Source of the DNA: Rhexocercosporidium sp. MPI-PUGE-AT-0058
Lineage: Eukaryota; Ascomycota; Leotiomycetes; Helotiales
DNA length: 64,000 bases
Assembly (NCBI GenBank): GCA_020746875.1
Contig: JAGTJL010000002.1
Coordinates: 2,170,001 to 2,234,000, forward strand
Reading direction: 5' to 3'
Translations under genes and position numbers: made by a program
Notes under the pieces: generated by a model
What the model was told of the DNA's origin: nothing
Seen by the model: only the letters and a program-made list of their open reading frames with translations
Databases searched by the model: none
In this document: positions 5,231-26,700 of the stretch, in pieces
Numbering within the stretch: position 1 is the stretch's first letter
How the letters are laid out: each line of letters begins with the position of its first letter

Positions 5231-8200
5231 GTTGTATTTGAGTTCCAAGGGTCTGCAAAATCAGCGAGATGTTCGTTAATTATAGCGCTGATTCAGTTGA
5301 TTCACAGGTTGTTGGTTTTCACGGAGTTGGTGACCACGAAAACAAAATAAATTGTCTGTCGGGGAGCAATCTCATGGAGGGGTCCGGTTTTCGCTTCGCG
5401 GGGTCGAATTCCGCGCTTTCCCTTCTATGGAAGTGACTCAAAAGGTCCACTGCCTCTCATGACTAAGCAGACGCGCTAGTGGAAAAATCATATCTTCTTC
5501 GCGATCTCGTCTCGCCTCGACTCTCTTTCTTCTTCAACAATTCCTTTCGAGGAATCAACGCAAACATAACAACTGCTTCAAAAAGCACTGGCTGTGAGAG
5601 ACCCGTCGCCCATGTGGTGATGTGAGGTTTCCATGACCTAAGTTGGCCGTCAGCAGATTGGAGAGAAGTTTTGGAGAATCTTGGGTGCGATTGGTCTCAG
5701 TCTATGAGATCGGTTGCAATGATTAGCCGTACATTGTCTTTGCTTTGATATCACATGTGCAAAACCCCTGAGGATGACCCCCCGAGTGCAAGCCAATAAG
5801 ATGTCCACTGCGTCTTCAAAATGATTGCTGTCTGTTTGCTGAGTGGAACTTTTCTGTACTGGGTCTGAAGGCTCGGGCTACCAAGACTTTTTCAGCGCAT
5901 GTTTGCAATCTTGAACAGAAACTCTTGATCGGCATCAAACAAAATCGTGTCCCCTCACAGTTAGTGTTATCCTGCAGTGCGCGAACTTGGTCGAGCAGGG
6001 CAATCAATCTCCGTGATTTCAATTTCTGTTGCGGGTAGGACTTGTATTTCTTCACTTAATTCCCACTTTCCAGACACCTTCGAGTTATCTCCTTGATGTA
6101 CTGTTAAATGATCCTCACTTCAAATTTTGCGCCAGCAAGCGTATGAATTTATTTCCCCTATGCCCAGTTTTGACGTCATGTTCTCTGATAAGACTGAAGC
6201 GACAGATACCGAGCGTGCCTTCTCTCCCTTGCGCCCCCTATCCTGCATAAATTGCTCTAGTAATACATAGCCACTCCCAATTTTTCAACGCAGTGCTGCG
6301 GTTTCTGCAATGAAAGTGTATCTCGGCAGCGCAATCTTCAAGTTCGCCCATCTTGCCATAGGCAGGCGCCATAGCATCAGCCTACTGGCCATGGTCATAA
6401 TTCAGATGTTTTCGATATCAACGACGGACAGATGGGTGCAATATGAAGAATGATTGCAGATCCAGGCTTCAACTACTCAGATATCAGATTAATTTAGTAC
6501 CGATTCTCGCTCTGACTTGGTAAGGCCTAGTTACCCAGTACGTAAAGGAAGATCGAACCTCATTCGAAGTCGATGTAGACAAGAGCTCGGGGTCGCGGAT
6601 AGCAGCGAAGATAGAATGCTAGAACAGGAGAAAGTACTGGTGAATTTGCACTCTGTATATTTCATATCCAACAGGACAACAATGGCTGCTGTGTCATTCA
6701 GGCCCAAGTATAGAGTGCACTAATCGACGCTCAGAGACCATTCTGAGAGTGTTCTGTCATCGCCAGAGAAGCAAAGGCACTTCAATAGAAGATACACTTG
6801 ATCTGCTAGAAACTGCACTGCATGCAAGGCTGTAACAACACCATCACCAATTTGCGTCAGCAAGACTGATTATACTCCTCAATCAATTAGCCTAGAGACC
6901 GGGAAGACCATCACAAAAATGACTTTTTGACATAGGTAGCCATACCTAACCACGAGGGCCAAATTTGGTGCTATACACATCTCAAAGGCACCAGAACGGC
7001 AACCACTCCAAACCCCAAAGCAAGAGCAAACCCTCTGCAAGTCCAATTATCTCGAGCATCATGGACTCCAAAAGCTTCCTCGCCACATCTGCTCGCTCAG
7101 CTCCGTTTGATAAGCCATTCACGATCAACGACAATAGCTTGAGAAGTGGGGAACCCTAGGAAATCTAAGGGGCAAAAAAGCAAAACAAGATATCCGGTCT
7201 TTATGCGAGAAGACTTGGTCTGAAAAGAAGATATCAACTGGCAGCGCGGATTTCACCAGCATTTTCATCGCATATTTTACGCAGCCGGAGCTGTGCTATG
7301 TGTACTGCGAGAGCTAGATGAGCTCAGGGATCATGAAAGAGTGGATTGCAAAACATCTCCCGACCAGACATCTTCGACACGCCCAGTTCGAAAGCTAGAG
7401 ATGAGCTTCTAAGGATAGAGAAAGCTCGTAAGCCCCGGAGAAAAGGCACAGCGGAATTATGGAGTGCGATTGTCAACCCCGCTGGATAGCCACGACGAGC
7501 CTGACCTGACCTTCGGATGAGAGCCATGACATGCTCTTTGCTAGGCATCACAGATCCGTTTTGGTTGCAGACAAGTAGTACATATCTACCGCCCGAGAAG
7601 ATCCATGAGCACCCTGTCTCCATATCTCCTTGATGCAAGCTGTAGTCATTTTCCAATACAGTTTACCGCCTCAATCATCCATCTAATAGTATTCATTCTT
7701 CCTTTGGCAGAGAGCTCGCCAAACAAGCCATATTCGCTTCACTCTTCTCATGCTACAGCTAGCAGAAGGAAGTGCTGTTCCTGAATTGTTCCTGAGTCCT
7801 AGCTACTGCAAGGCGAAGCGCTTCGTCTAATTGGGGAGCAATCCATCTATTGTCCCCGAAAGAGGGGATGCATGACAGTTACCAGGAGTGAAATCTTTGT
7901 TTCATCAACCTTTCAGCATCCAGTTGCACCGCTGTCCAACACACCCTCCTCACCGTTGAAAGGGGTTGGTTTTTGTCAAGCGACTGTATCGAAGCGCCCA
8001 GCTTGCATTTACATCTTAGCACCAATATTCTGGGAATCTCCCAGCTAACTTTCTGGACTGACCATTGACTGAGAGCAGCAAATCACCGAATCATCAGGAG
8101 TAGATAGCCGGCGGTATCAAAGCCTGATTCGATATCTCTCGCTTTCCATGCTCAATTCGACGTTGATGAAGGACGGTACCTTTGTTGGATGGACTTTCTA

Positions 8201-20757: not shown

Positions 20758-23700
20758 CTACTTGTCCCCTGGCTTGACAATCTTACAGATAAGATCAGAG
20801 CCTCCAACCGAATCACCCTCCTTGATCTGGATAGAGCCGACCTTACCAGCGTGAGGTGCGGAGATAACCATTTCCTATTTACCAGATTAGCACTTGTCTT
20901 TTCTCAGACATAGAGCCTACTTACCATCTTCATGGCACTGAGAACAGCAATTGGGTCACCCTTCTTGACTTCACCACCATCCTTGACACGGATCTCAACA
21001 ACAACACCAGACATTGGTGCTCCGACTTGGCTGCTGTCTCCAGGATCGGCCTTTGGTCTGCTGGTGTTCTCCACGGCAGCATTGTTATCGTCGACTGTGA
21101 CTTGGCGGACCTCACCTGCAAATTGTGAGCAATTTTCTAGCTTAGGGACCGGGACTCCTACCATTCATCTCGTAGAACACTTCTCTCTGGCCAGTGGTAT
21201 CTGACAAGGGGCCAACGGCAAGAAGCTTCAAGATCAAAACTTTACCCTTCTCAAGCTCGACGTGAAATTCTTCTCCAATCTCAGGCTTCGACAAGAAGTA
21301 TCTGGTTGGGAGAACACTCAGATCACCATACTTTTGGATGAAAGTGCGGTAATCATCGAAGACCTTAGGGTACATGGCGTAACTGGCGACATCACATTCG
21401 GTAACGCTTCCGTACTTGTTGTAGATATCCTTCTTGATCTTAGCTAGATCAAGAGGCTCCAGGGTCAAACCAGGTCGCTTGTCGAGCTTGCGTCTACCAC
21501 GGAGGGCATTGGATCTGAGAGGCTCAGGGAAACCGCCGTATGGTTGGCCCATGAGACCCTCGAAGAACTCGAGGACAGAGCCTGGGAAATCAAGCTCGCC
21601 AGCCTTCTTCTGAACATCGTCGAAGTTGAGCTTGTTGGAGACCATGAATTGAGCCAAATCACCAACAACCTTGGATGTTGGAGTGACCTTGACGATATCA
21701 CCAAGTAAGTCATTTGCCTGTTCATAGGCCTTCTTGGTCTCGGCCCATTGCGCACCAAGACCAAGTTGGGAGGCTTGGAACATCATGTTTGTCAATTGAC
21801 CACCAGGAATCTCGTGTTCATAGACCTCAGGATCGGGTCCATCTAAAGGAATGTCAGCCGACTAGCACTATGTGTCAGGGGTTCTACATACTGAGACCAG
21901 CTTCAAATGGCGAGTAAAGCAAACGCAACTGAGCCCAATAGGTGTCAATGGCTCGGACATGGTGGACGTTGAGACCTGGGTAGAGATCGGATCCTTCCAG
22001 AGAAGCCAAGACCGCACCGACAGATGGCTGACTAGTCATGCCGCTCAGAGAGTCAGTTGCAGTGTCGACGGCGTCGGCACCGGCCTCTGCACATGCGACC
22101 ATGGACGCAACACCAGTACCGGCCGAGTCGTGGGTGTGGACATGAATCGGGAGATCCGGGTACTTCTTGCGAATGGCACCAACGAGGAGGGTGGCAGCTT
22201 TTGGCTTAAGGACTCCCGCCATATCTTTTATACCTAAGATATGAATGTTGAGTGCAACAAGTTCATCGACTAACTTTAAATAATACTCAAGGTTATACTT
22301 CTTCTTGGGGTTCTGGATAAATTGTTAGTACATGATGATGAGTATCGTGCATTGACATAATGAAAAGAGTATCGGAAAGTCCACGAGTGCAATTTCTCCG
22401 CGTATCTGATGATAAGCGATCATTTATTGACGAAATGAAATGAGTGAAGGCAGGTCCAGGAGTTCATATGCCCCGGGCAGATGAGGAGTCGGACAGCGTC
22501 CAAACCCCCGAAGGTCCAAAAATTCCAGTTTTCAGGTCCTGTATCTAGCGTAGAGCCAGACTCAGCCAAAGTAACCGCGTTGGCATGGTTTGGCGTTGCA
22601 AGATGACCGTTGAGCTTCTGCTGTGTCTTTCCTGCATAGTCACATATGTCGCAATAGTATCTTCGAGCAGCAAGGTTGTTGTTGTAGCGGTCCTGAGCTG
22701 CTGGGTTCTTGCCGATTTTGACCATACCAGCAGCCTTGTTTTTGTGACCTTGGGTGGCTTTGTGGATTTTCAACTGGCTTCCAGTGCCAAATTTGACGTT
22801 GCGAAGATTGGATTTGAATCTTTCTTCTGCCAATGCCTTTTCTCGGTTGTTCTTGGTGTCAAGGGCAATTCGCACTGGACCACGTACAGCTGCATCTCTA
22901 CGGCTGTTATGAAGTTTTCGCTCTGCATCGATAGCATCAATTTCTTCCACAGTGAAGACTTGATCAGACCCGTGGGTTTGTTCAAGCGTAGATAGATGCC
23001 CACAGCAGCCATCGTATTCCAGAGTATCCGCAGGCCAAGGACAGAGTCTAGGGTAACATCCATAAGTCTTGTTTTGATTTCTTATGACCCAGAAGAACAG
23101 AGTAAAGGTAGCTTCGATGACGAGGAATAGGGCAAGGAGCGGGATTCTCAAGGAAGCAGGCGGGAGCGACACCCAGCAAAGGAGACCTTTATGGATGGTG
23201 ACATAATGCCACCAACCGCACGCTTCACTTTGCTTGGGACATTTTCTCCACGCTTGTATTGGCCGATACGGATGCGGACACCGCTGCGCTTCTCAGTTCC
23301 ACAGCCAATATAGACAACAGGCCGATGACCCAGTTTTCCGAGCACAAGTACATATACGGCCCAGATTTTGATCAAGCTGGACTGCAGACTCTTGAAAAGG
23401 CAATGGTGGGCGCTGATTTTGACCGAAGGACTTGGAGTAGACCGGGGCCGAAGGTGATCGGACGGCGTCTGAAGATCTCATCAAGGACTGCTTCACTTGG
23501 CAGGATAGAAACGAATGTCGGGTTCTTTCGACTCGTAGGGGAGGGGGAGAGGCAGTTCCAGCAGAGATAGACTAGGAGACTAGGAGCAGCATGATGTCTG
23601 TGGTATTGGGCGCCATATCTATCTCATATACCCGGGGCAGGCGAGGATACTGAGTGGAAGCGGTGACGGTAGGTAGACCTGGTTGATTGGCTTGTTTCCG

Positions 23701-26700
23701 GAAGCCGTCCAACGAGCTCACTTGCCCGCGGCAATTGTTGAGCTGAAGGCTGTAGGGAGATCAAGGAGCCCTGACGTGGTTGTGGAAACCCGCCATATAA
23801 GAAAAGAGTGCTTCCAGGTTAAGCGAGTCTGGCTCAGGTCCAGAAATGTCCCGGAAAACTTTCCTGATAATGAACGTCGACCATATTGGAAGGGTACACT
23901 AGTACTTTGGATATTGGGGATATGATATGAATAGAAACCTATAAAACTCACTAGCATGTCTCCAGAAAAGCACACTGTCCCTTCAACGACTCCACCCGCC
24001 TTGTGGACAGCCTTGATGCCAACCTCAAGTTGGGCGATGTCATTGAGAGCATCGAAGACCCTAAAGATATCAATTCCATGTTTCTTGGCTTGCTCGCAGA
24101 AGTGATAGATTGCGTTGTCTGGCAACGAGGAGTACGCAACGCCGTTTGCACCACGCAACAACATCTGGAAGGGGATGTTGGGGATCAGTTTTCGCATCTT
24201 TCGGAGTCTGTCCCATGGATCTTCGTATAGGAAACGCATAGCGACATCGAAAGTGGCACCACCCCAACACTCGAGACTGTAAAGGTTGCTGTAAGCATGG
24301 CTGGTCTCCTTGGCAATGTTCAACAGATCGACTGTTCGGACGCGGGTAGCCAAGAGTGACTGATGAGCATCACGCCAAGTTGTGTCCATAAGAAGACATC
24401 CTTTATTCTTCCGGACGGCCTTTGCGAAGGCCTCTGGGCCTTCCTCGACGATGATGTTTCTCCATCCCTTCTGGCATGGCACACTAGTATCGATTTTCTT
24501 TCCAGCATCATCGAAGAGTTCAGGCATGATGATATCCCCCTTGAACTTGGGCTCTCCAATCTGCCCCTTGATAGAGCTACCATTGACAGCCACATCTCCA
24601 AGGTAAGCCAATAATTTCTGGGCACGGTTCTGGCTGCCAACAAGGTCGAACAACTCAGGCGTATCGTCGATGAAGGTGGTCCAGCAGGTACCCTCAATGA
24701 ATGTAGGATGTGTAAGGAGGGAAGCCAAAAATGGGATATTGGTCTTGACTCCACGGATACGGAACTCGACCAAAGCACGAAGCATCTTGCGACGAGCAAT
24801 CTCGTAGGTGGAGCCGTGGCAGGTACATTTTACCAACATACTATCGTAACTAACCAAAGAGTTAGCATATATGATTTACAATACTTTGGGATCAGAACAA
24901 AGGATCTGATCCCAAATTTCAGACTATGGAGTAATCTAGGGTGATAAAAGACATACTGGGCTGTTCGGCAAGTTAGCAAATGTACAATGTATGATTGGAT
25001 CCGAATGAGAAAAGAGGCAAACAACGTCCCAAGAAAATCCCAAACTTTAGATGTCGAATTTCTAGCTCAATTGCACGGCATCCGGAAAGAAAATTTGGTC
25101 AACTTACGAGTGATGATTGCGCCTGCAAATCCATTTCCACCATCCAATCTGACACCATTACCACCAGCCGATCTGTAGACCTCAATTTTTCCAGTATCGG
25201 GCGAGAATCCCTTCGCAGGATCTTCTGTCGTGATGCGGCACTGGATAGCGAAGCCACGAGTAGAGATTCGGTCCTGGGTAAGTCCAAGCTGAGCCAAAGT
25301 AGCACCTGCGGCAATTTGGATTTGAGCAGCAATGAGATCAATGCCAGTGATCTCCTCGGTGATTGTGTGCTCGACTTGGATACGGGGGTTGATTTCGATG
25401 AAGTAGTATCGGTTCTTCTGATCAACCAAGAACTCCGCAGTTCCAGCATTGCGGTAGTTGACTGACTTGGCTAGCTTCACAGCATCCTTTAGAAGGTTGT
25501 CTCTGACATCGGCGGGGAGATCTTTGGCTGGGGCCAACTCAACCACTTTTTGATGTCTTCGTTGAACGGAACAATCACGCTCATACAAATGAACGATGTT
25601 TCCGTGGTTGTCTCCCAAGAGTTGAACCTCGATGTGCTTGGGCTTGTCGAGGAATCTCTCCACGAAAACAGTGCCGTTGCCGAAGGCAGACTTGGCCTCA
25701 GAAGTGGCTCTTTGGAAAGAATCTTCCAAGTCCTTCTGCTCTCGCACAACTCTCATACCACGTCCACCTCCTCCATATGCGGCCTTGATGATAATAGGAA
25801 ATCCATATTCATCGGTGAATTTCTTCACATCTTCGAATTTGTCAACAGCCCCCTCTGTTCCAGGAACAACAGGCACACCGGCCTTGATAGCGATGGTTCT
25901 TGCAGAGACCTTGTCGCCAAGGGAATCGATGACTTCAGGGGAGGGTCCGACGAACTGTAAGCATCTGTTAGCAAAAAGTCAAAGCAATCACATGTCAAAG
26001 CAACATACTATGAGGCCAGCCTTCTCAACATTTCGAGCAAACTCTGCGTTTTCGGAGAGGAATCCGTAACCTGCAAGAGGAATTAGGAAGTCTCGCAAGA
26101 AAGCTGCCCAGATCTCTTACCAGGATGAATCATCTGGACTCCATGTTGCAGGGCAATCTTGATGATCTCGTCCCCCGCCAAGTAAGCACCAACTGGAGTA
26201 TATTGTCCGCGCTTTCCAATAACATAGGCTTCATCGGCTTCTGTTGAGACGATTACGATTAGCAATTGCTCGCAGATGAATTGTATGAGGGATAACTGAC
26301 TCTGTCTGTGCATGCTAAGGCGGTCCTCATAACTGCCAATCCGTTAGCCCCTGCCAATGATTATCCAACTTTCCAATTGGTACCTGAAAACTGCGACCGT
26401 CTGGAGGGATAGTTCGTGGGCCTGAATGCGAGTCAGCAGCTGCATGAGAGCTCCCAATGCTCGCAAGAAGGGCGGTCAGAGGTGGGACTTACAGTACGGA
26501 AGATCTAGATTATCAAACACACAGGTTAGCAAGCTGGTTTGGGATACCCCGCCAAGCAGAGCACATACGCGAATGGCTACACAGAGTCAGTCTTTTATCC
26601 TCGCACAGCAGCTATGGGAGAAGACAGCACTTACGAATTTCTCCTCGATTTGCGACTGTAACATTCCAAGACTCCACGTTAGCACATTGAATCTCACAAG

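Follow-up and report, generated by a model that had tools for sequence, protein, structure and literature searches.

The 64,000-nt stretch of DNA analysed here (the window) carries on its minus strand a pyruvate carboxylase gene (PYC) that is interrupted by a spliceosomal intron of 1639 nt (22313..23951). Read from 23951 to 22313, the intron opens with GTGAGT, contains TACTAAC at 22330-22324, closes with CAG, and separates GDML from [11 protein letters not shown] in phase 0. The coding exon 5' of the intron (23952..24875, minus strand) ends in CFSGDML, its open frame reaching 24875, and the coding exon 3' of the intron (21892..22312, minus strand, 3' end placed by eye) starts with [11 protein letters not shown] and belongs to the HMGL-like domain. 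Human PYC aligns with the spliced PYC across the junction, the closest gap being a 1-residue indel four codons downstream; the interruption of the gene at this very point, proposed in an earlier sequence-only reading, therefore holds, and the coordinates, strand, splicing signals and length of the intron were found correct when the sequence was read again. Searched against the whole genome at E 0.001, in a search that skips very common words, the intron DNA matches only itself; no set of near-identical intron copies was found.

Within the intron, in sense with PYC, lies the remnant of a nested nuclease gene (22552..23616, minus strand), extending from a likely start at MAPNTTDI to the end of the part that resembles its relatives. 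The residues of the nuclease motif named in the sequence-only reading are present and all retained on the minus strand: the Tyr, Tyr, and Gly of the AVY...YIG motif (23304..23360), the putative catalytic Arg (23268..23270), 14 residues past the Tyr of YIG, and the putative catalytic Glu in VIEATF (23113..23115), which is invariant in the 56 aligned relatives. Of two C2H2 fingers on the same strand, the first (22744..22818) is degenerate, with both Cys ligands replaced (S, R), and the second (22585..22662), C-x2-C-x12-H-x5-H, has its ligands intact; the single finger first recognized is thus real, but relatives carry at least two, of which the first has lost its Cys ligands here. The coding frame is decaying as proposed, but by at least three frame changes rather than two one-base shifts: when compared by eye, the N-terminal piece [11 protein letters not shown] sits in yet another frame. 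The joined coding pieces (with X at two breaks) match 29 proteins, the best at E 4.3e-111, with 55% identity along the full length of the query. The collinear same-strand pieces are therefore real, chance open frames are ruled out by relatives at E 4e-111, and the search against proteins uncovered a fungal family, of which 148 proteins were retrieved. Judged by its sequence, the PYC intron probably holds the remains of a gene for a DNA-cutting enzyme.

The family shows the GIY-YIG motif order Tyr ... Tyr-x-Gly ... Arg ... Glu, all 56 aligned rows sharing Tyr86, Tyr100, Gly102, and Glu166, and 55 of them Arg114. The sequence-only reading had named a lack of GIY-YIG similarity in profile searches as refuting, and the Pfam GIY-YIG profile (PF01541) was not matched by the window pieces, by 30 relatives or by eight further queries; this adverse result is offset by profile-profile comparison with GIY-YIG, for which T4 GIY-YIG domains were extracted and in which scores of 19.3 and 21.7 were obtained, neither of them equalled by any of 100 column shuffles. 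The best of seven GIY-YIG reference subsets in this comparison was I-TevI alone (P 0.0022). NCBIfam and PHROGs gave no acceptable homing-type match for the family, although five of 30 members gave weak HNH-labelled PHROG matches (E 0.0026 at best). A genome scan with PF01541 found one other locus, SLX1-like by reading. As Pfam gives no match, the GIY-YIG-like label rests on motif order together with profile-profile comparison, which suggest a remote kinship with the GIY-YIG superfamily.

Three copies of the family were detected in this genome (62.7 Mb), all in sense and all in introns of conserved nuclear genes; none was detected outside introns. The PYC copy has a broken frame, the CPA2 copy is intact, keeping every motif residue in an open frame that contains a 49-nt intron of its own, and the SF3B1 copy lacks the nuclease half. 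As read from the sequence, all three element introns have the form GT..CTAAC..AG, and the spliced PYC, CPA2, and SF3B1 proteins align across all three junctions with solved homologues. The long-conserved frame with its invariant residues would suit a normal cellular gene, for instance one of DNA repair, that happens to nest in host introns, but the host genes differ between fungi, two of the three copies here are broken, and the absence of any detected copy outside introns in this genome also argues against such a gene, so that this explanation is very improbable.

In other fungi, 14 of the 148 retrieved proteins are merged gene models that also take in pieces of housekeeping genes, the hosts among them being PYC, CPA2, aconitase, ATP2, VMA1, HSP70, and DED1. 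Together with the CPA2 and SF3B1 copies, these merged models fit the suggestion that the family may lie inside introns of other conserved nuclear genes. Among the 134 unmerged proteins, four bear only the name of a host gene (cpa2 in three, PCK1 in one) and 130 are without known context. The nuclease is flanked on both sides by SSB sequence in P0146 and by DED1 sequence in P0143; the Pochonia copy (P0032) rejoins PYC at PGKKYNLDYY, within one codon of the PYC intron site described here, and the paralogous genes ATP2 and VMA1 carry related nucleases at homologous codons. These foreign sites were deduced from protein gene models only, and they form a biased sample because merged models reveal only same-strand copies within genes. 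A Pfam search of ten of the longest unmerged relatives found no host domains, and the 26 of 134 unmerged relatives with an end or loop of at least 40 residues outside the family profile showed, by eye, no conserved host gene. One IMG/VR scan of viral contigs gave 17 pattern matches and prokaryote contigs gave two, none of them confirmed as relatives.

In a tree of the family, copies partly group by insertion site. The two PYC-site copies form one clade (99/98), three aconitase copies group together (99/83), as do two HSP70 copies (100/100), and the ATP2, VMA1, and PCK1 copies fall within one clade of 13 (100/100). The fit is incomplete: four changes are needed for the five CPA2-labelled rows, three of whose labels are names without coordinates, and two for the two ATP2 rows. 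With these CPA2 and ATP2 labels as exceptions, the recurrence at the same sites and the site clades reveal specificity for target genes and sites. Such recurrence, across species and at paralogous sites, speaks against ordinary transposons whose insertions persist only where they fall in introns, an explanation that is unlikely, even if the patchy, decaying copies would fit it. A 17-nt inverted repeat, 88% complementary, also lies on either side of the frame within the PYC intron, as transposon ends might, but only weak inverted pairs (74-75%) surround the CPA2 copy, and a rough hand estimate puts the chance expectation of a repeat as good as the PYC pair at about 0.1; both sets of repeats are taken as chance.

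The PYC intron is probably a nuclear homing intron of the “shintron” type, dependent on the spliceosome and present here as a decaying copy, which encodes a GIY-YIG-like nuclease with C-terminal C2H2 fingers and sits at a conserved coding site of an essential gene. The proposal of a nuclear homing-type element that needs the spliceosome and is now decaying thus gains support from the residence of all three copies in sense introns, the Pochonia site, the merges with essential genes, and the partial grouping by site. In such an element, the C2H2 fingers would direct the nuclease to conserved exon sequence in element-free alleles, the nuclease would cleave the allele there, and repair templated by the element-bearing chromosome would copy in the intron together with its nuclease. 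The host spliceosome would excise the intron from the mRNA, so that the essential gene survives; copies would later lose the nuclease frame and persist as introns, and an occasional cut at a similar site, in a paralogue or another gene, may found a new lineage. The missing Pfam sequence-profile match to GIY-YIG, the biased foreign sites, and the imperfect site grouping count against this reading.

Ordinary introns bear on how the elements came to their sites. At eight of nine checked foreign nuclease sites, this genome has an ordinary intron, 52-224 nt long, in the same place or only a few nt away (boundaries read by eye), which implies that the nucleases either move into old introns or give rise to them. 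This observation also fits a narrower version of the homing reading, in which nuclease genes repeatedly settled in old introns, homing, if any, converts intron-bearing alleles, and the nuclease never moved the intron; this version is a genuine possibility, though short of likely. Against it, the CPA2 element intron is distinct from an ordinary 50-nt intron and lies 1 nt beyond it, some foreign positions look shifted by 1-5 nt (PYC, DED1, and HSP70; by eye from gene models), and the second PYC element site is without an intron in the window. ATP2 and VMA1 are paralogues older than eukaryotes; their introns in this genome lie 1 nt apart and VMA2 has no intron at that position, which also weighs against nucleases that merely settled in old introns. 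DED1 has one other intron, upstream. The converse may be put forward only tentatively: in fungal housekeeping genes (ATP2, VMA1, aconitase, SSA/SSB, DED1, PYC, and CPA2), many of the short introns at coding sites of high conservation could be relics of homed nuclease-bearing introns, with homing nucleases driving spliceosomal intron gain and a shared cleavage site accounting for parallel gain at near-identical positions.

Spliceosomal homing introns received their name only late in 2025, from viral examples, and eukaryotic genomes are reported to be apparently devoid of them. If the homing reading is true, a multi-gene fungal family would mean that selfish introns dependent on the host spliceosome reside in cellular nuclear genes, and homing would be linked to the open question of the origin of spliceosomal introns and of their parallel gain at the same places. 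It would also explain odd fungal gene models in public proteomes, in which a nuclease is fused to PYC, aconitase, HSP70, or ATP synthase. The idea is testable because the family includes one intact copy as well as broken ones, its sites are defined, and its hosts are tractable in the laboratory. The open-licence literature yielded no description of a fungal nuclear gene with a nuclease gene in one of its spliceosomal introns.

Fungal mitochondrial introns often encode GIY-YIG enzymes. Like I-TevI and these mitochondrial enzymes, the fungal family is intron-encoded, occupies conserved coding sites and has the order Tyr..Tyr-x-Gly..Arg..Glu; unlike group I-borne GIY-YIG enzymes, it resides in nuclear protein genes, in introns with spliceosomal signals and no ribozyme match. 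The mitochondrial prevalence would favour a degenerate group I intron with a mitochondria-derived homing endonuclease that became spliceosome-spliced after gaining splice sites, as does the nucleus of Ustilago maydis, which is described as having received a mitochondrial GIY-YIG gene (PMC7593156). This origin is nevertheless quite unlikely, given a GC content of 47-50% and the absence of any match to group I/II models up to E 1 in the PYC, CPA2, and SF3B1 introns; the intron-model search gave two unrelated matches below the gathering threshold (SOX2OT_exon3, 21.1 versus 70 bits; SNORD109A, 22.2 versus 35). Nuclear rDNA group I introns are described as carrying His-Cys nuclease genes that are themselves split by a small spliceosomal intron (PMC9548176). 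The fungal family resembles them in combining a probable homing gene with a small spliceosomal intron, but their carrier, located in rDNA, is a self-splicing ribozyme.

Inteins that carry homing endonucleases reside in VMA1 and PRP8 of fungi. As in the reading favoured here, these are homing elements that occupy conserved, essential genes of the nucleus, with VMA1 a host in both cases, but inteins leave the protein, not the RNA, and their nucleases differ (for VMA intein sites, see PMC2814812). Introners occur in many similar copies per genome, a feature that the PYC intron lacks at E 0.001. Introner-like elements are described as mobile spliceosomal introns of fungi, three studied ones having inserted in a 15 bp window that is occupied by regular introns in other fungi (PMC4457414). 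The fungal family encodes a putative nuclease, of which the abstract of that paper makes no mention, and is present here in three divergent copies. The shintrons of mirusviruses, named in 2025, are GT-AG introns without group I/II signatures that contain nuclease genes (132 GIY-YIG among 334) and strongly prefer key genes as targets, and their authors apparently saw no equivalent in eukaryotic genomes (PMC12768974). Shintrons have viral hosts and lie mostly in virion genes, whereas the fungal family, with its C2H2 fingers, resides in cellular nuclear housekeeping genes; the two share the GT-AG intron free of group I/II signatures and the preference for key genes, and the gene within the fungal introns is likewise a putative nuclease gene.

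The pyruvate carboxylase gene (PYC) is interrupted on the minus strand by a 1639-nt phase 0 intron (23951 to 22313) that carries GTGAGT, TACTAAC, and CAG signals and is placed between GDML and an 11-residue stretch; re-reading of the sequence reproduced the coordinates, strand, splice signals, and place in PYC given by the sequence-only reading. Spliced PYC aligns with human pyruvate carboxylase through the junction, the closest gap being an indel of one residue located four codons downstream of it. The sense strand inside the intron contains fragments of a single protein, frame after frame, and these pieces, joined with X at two breaks, have 29 matches in a set of 5.8 billion proteins (best E 4.3e-111, 55% identity, entire query covered), so that the collinear coding pieces noticed earlier represent a real protein. 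The nuclease-motif Tyr, Tyr, Gly, Arg, and Glu are retained. The earlier suggestion of decay, made from two one-base shifts, was right that this copy is damaged but understated the damage: the family N-terminus (MAPxxTDI...) sits in a third frame, and both cysteines of the first zinc finger are gone. A 17-nt inverted repeat (22469-22485 / 23623-23639; 88% complementary, CCCGGG core) brackets the nuclease frame, with a chance expectation of about 0.1 by a rough hand estimate.

A profile built from 25 of the 29 first matches gave 159 matches, and a third search, for which residues 370-749 of protein P0102 were picked so as to reach long merged models, gave 24; with the 120 profile matches listed, the family sample comprises at least 148 distinct proteins. 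The GIY-YIG label proposed for the nuclease holds only at the level of remote similarity. No GIY-YIG call for the family is made by Pfam, NCBIfam, or PHROGs, the suggested Pfam check thus giving no match, and the sole find of a PF01541 scan of the genome assembly is an SLX1-like gene, with the family copies unmatched. Tyr86, Tyr100, Gly102, and Glu166 are nevertheless invariant in 56 of 56 relatives, and Arg114 is present in 55. In hhalign comparisons, the family domain scores 19.3 against ten GIY-YIG domains (UvrC, SLX1, and eight from phage T4, five of these above the PF01541 cut-off) and 21.7 against UvrC, I-TevI, and one T4 protein. Both values exceed those of all 100 family alignments with shuffled columns (maxima 15.3 and 19.0). 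The associated probabilities, 3% and 8%, are small as absolute values, but comparisons between GIY-YIG groups themselves often yield scores that are no higher (UvrC versus Seg, 11.8; SLX1 versus I-TevI, 16.1), while some pairs score far higher (UvrC versus I-TevI, 33.9). The profile alignment couples AVY with GIY, YIG with YIG, and both Glu regions, and the family is counted here, from sequence comparison, as a putative remote GIY-YIG relative.

In the 62.7-Mb, 60-contig assembly, searches with single proteins (the window protein, P0028, P0129, and P0017) detect at least three family loci, a lower bound, all on contig C12; P0129 additionally matches contig C1, through its zinc-finger part only (E 4.4e-4). 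All three copies lie in sense orientation within their host genes. The copy in the carbamoyl-phosphate synthase gene CPA2 (C12:2695267-2697316) has an open frame with every motif residue and both fingers, the SF3B1 copy, in a 793-nt intron (C12:2763994-2764786), retains only the C-terminal half, and the PYC copy is frame-broken; three stages, intact, broken, and truncated, are therefore found within one genome. Within the nested CPA2 gene, a 49-nt GT-AG intron separates WIPIP from HASLQP (5406-5454 of locus L008), and this gene is therefore built like a nuclear one. Across the junction, spliced SF3B1 aligns with a solved homologue with no gap, and so does spliced CPA2 apart from a single-residue gap a few codons off. 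In CPA2 (L008 4217-4268, equal to C12:2695216-2695267), a separate ordinary 50-nt intron is followed by a 1-nt exon and then by the 2050-nt nuclease intron. The reading frame requires excision of both, which probably occurs sequentially, in stwintron fashion; as the element intron is distinct from the 50-nt intron, the element is not simply cargo in an old intron.

In the family tree (86 rows, 384 columns), the CPA2 and SF3B1 copies are sisters (100/97), with the SF3B1 copy covering only 43% of columns, and the PYC copy lies in a different clade. Among labelled host genes, the nearest is VMA1 of Cadophora (96% over model residues 45-306), a hint that the genome is that of a leotiomycete, the class of Cadophora. 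The three detected copies fall within 0.6 Mb of C12 (2.19-2.76 Mb), and the spacing of about 67 kb between the sister copies suggests a local jump.

In other fungi, where sites were read from protein models and may be a few bases off, the nuclease is merged with a host gene in 14 of the 148 proteins, the host sequence breaking off and resuming at conserved positions inside the gene. The hosts are PYC (P0032, Pochonia; at a second site, P0072, Cryoendolithus), aconitase (P0077, P0130, and P0133 at or near one site; P0102, Zymoseptoria, at another), ATP synthase beta (ATP2; P0111, P0127), V-ATPase A (VMA1; P0103), carbamoyl-phosphate synthase (P0131, Neonectria), HSP70 (P0142, P0146, P0148), and a DED1-type helicase (P0143). 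Four further proteins carry the name of a host gene with no merge (cpa2 for P0021, P0026, and P0121; PCK1 for P0115). Host identity was checked by comparison with solved structures for P0103, P0127, P0143, and P0146, and for the others is taken from Pfam labels, record names, and reading by eye. Host sequence flanks the nuclease on both sides in P0146 and P0143; in P0146, the match of residues 1-124 to one SSB1 chain stops at its position 255, and that of residues 510-869 to another SSB1 chain begins at 255, so that, allowing for a possible offset between the two chains, the join is good to about one residue. Pochonia PYC resumes at PGKKYNLDYY, at most one codon from the window junction. Most likely, the 14 fusions are wrong gene models spanning a nuclease-bearing intron. 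Among the 134 unmerged relatives, 26 have at least 40 residues beyond the family profile, and no conserved host gene was seen in these by eye, in agreement with Pfam on ten of the longest. As merging requires a same-strand copy within a gene, this sample of sites is biased, with context known for only 18 of 148 proteins and absent for 130.

Insertion sites follow the tree in part. The two PYC-site rows fall in a 17-row clade (99/98) whose remaining 15 rows have no host label, three aconitase rows cluster (99/83), as do two HSP70 rows, SSB-like and SSA-like (100/100), and the ATP2, VMA1, and PCK1 copies share a 13-row clade (100/100). ATP2 and VMA1 are ancient paralogues, and their nucleases occupy the homologous codon, ..TG|[IL]T..EYFRD. 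Such a pattern is the trace that site-specific recognition with rare jumps to look-alike sites would leave. The correspondence is unclean (four changes over five rows for CPA2, two over two rows for ATP2), and several host labels are represented by a single row; for all 12 labels jointly, the tree requires 11 changes, the minimum possible, whereas shuffled labels average 15.3, with 0 of 200 shuffles as low.

Nine foreign element sites with a readable place were examined in the host genes of this genome, and at eight an ordinary intron lies at or within a few nucleotides of the place (loci L073-L078): VMA1 (110 nt), ATP2 (120 nt), aconitase (52 and 76 nt), DED1 (113 nt), SSB (117 and 224 nt), and SSA (61 nt). 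Boundaries were chosen by eye from frame and GT-AG, and the second aconitase boundary as chosen gives F where H is usual. At the ninth, the second PYC site, the window PYC is uninterrupted. No further intron precedes the site over 259 codons in VMA1, 125 codons in SSB, or about 430 codons in DED1, which has one intron farther upstream; aconitase is intron-rich, and the coincidence there is therefore less telling. The ATP2 and VMA1 introns lie 1 nt apart in homologous codons, with 24 of 36 exon nucleotides around the sites identical; in VMA2, the third paralogue, that place has neither EYFRD nor an intron. Either the nucleases prefer places already holding introns, or the short introns are remnants of eroded nuclease introns. 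For introner-like elements, PMC4457414 describes parallel gains falling in a 15 bp window where other fungi have regular introns.

The nuclease genes reside in introns, recur at sites, decay, and, in CPA2, hold an intron of their own. In the cycle that we propose, the fingers would bind conserved exon sequence, the nuclease would cut element-free alleles, and repair would copy the entire intron in; excision by the spliceosome would make an essential gene a safe and hard-to-lose home. By the same logic, conserved sites are favoured by inteins and group I introns, but not by spliceosomal introns generally, according to PMC2814812. Searches of open-licence literature gave no earlier report of such fungal elements. 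The fungal family, with its putative nuclease, matches the description of shintrons, the spliceosomal homing introns named for mirusviruses, for which PMC12768974 noted no counterpart in eukaryotic genomes, but resides in cellular genes.
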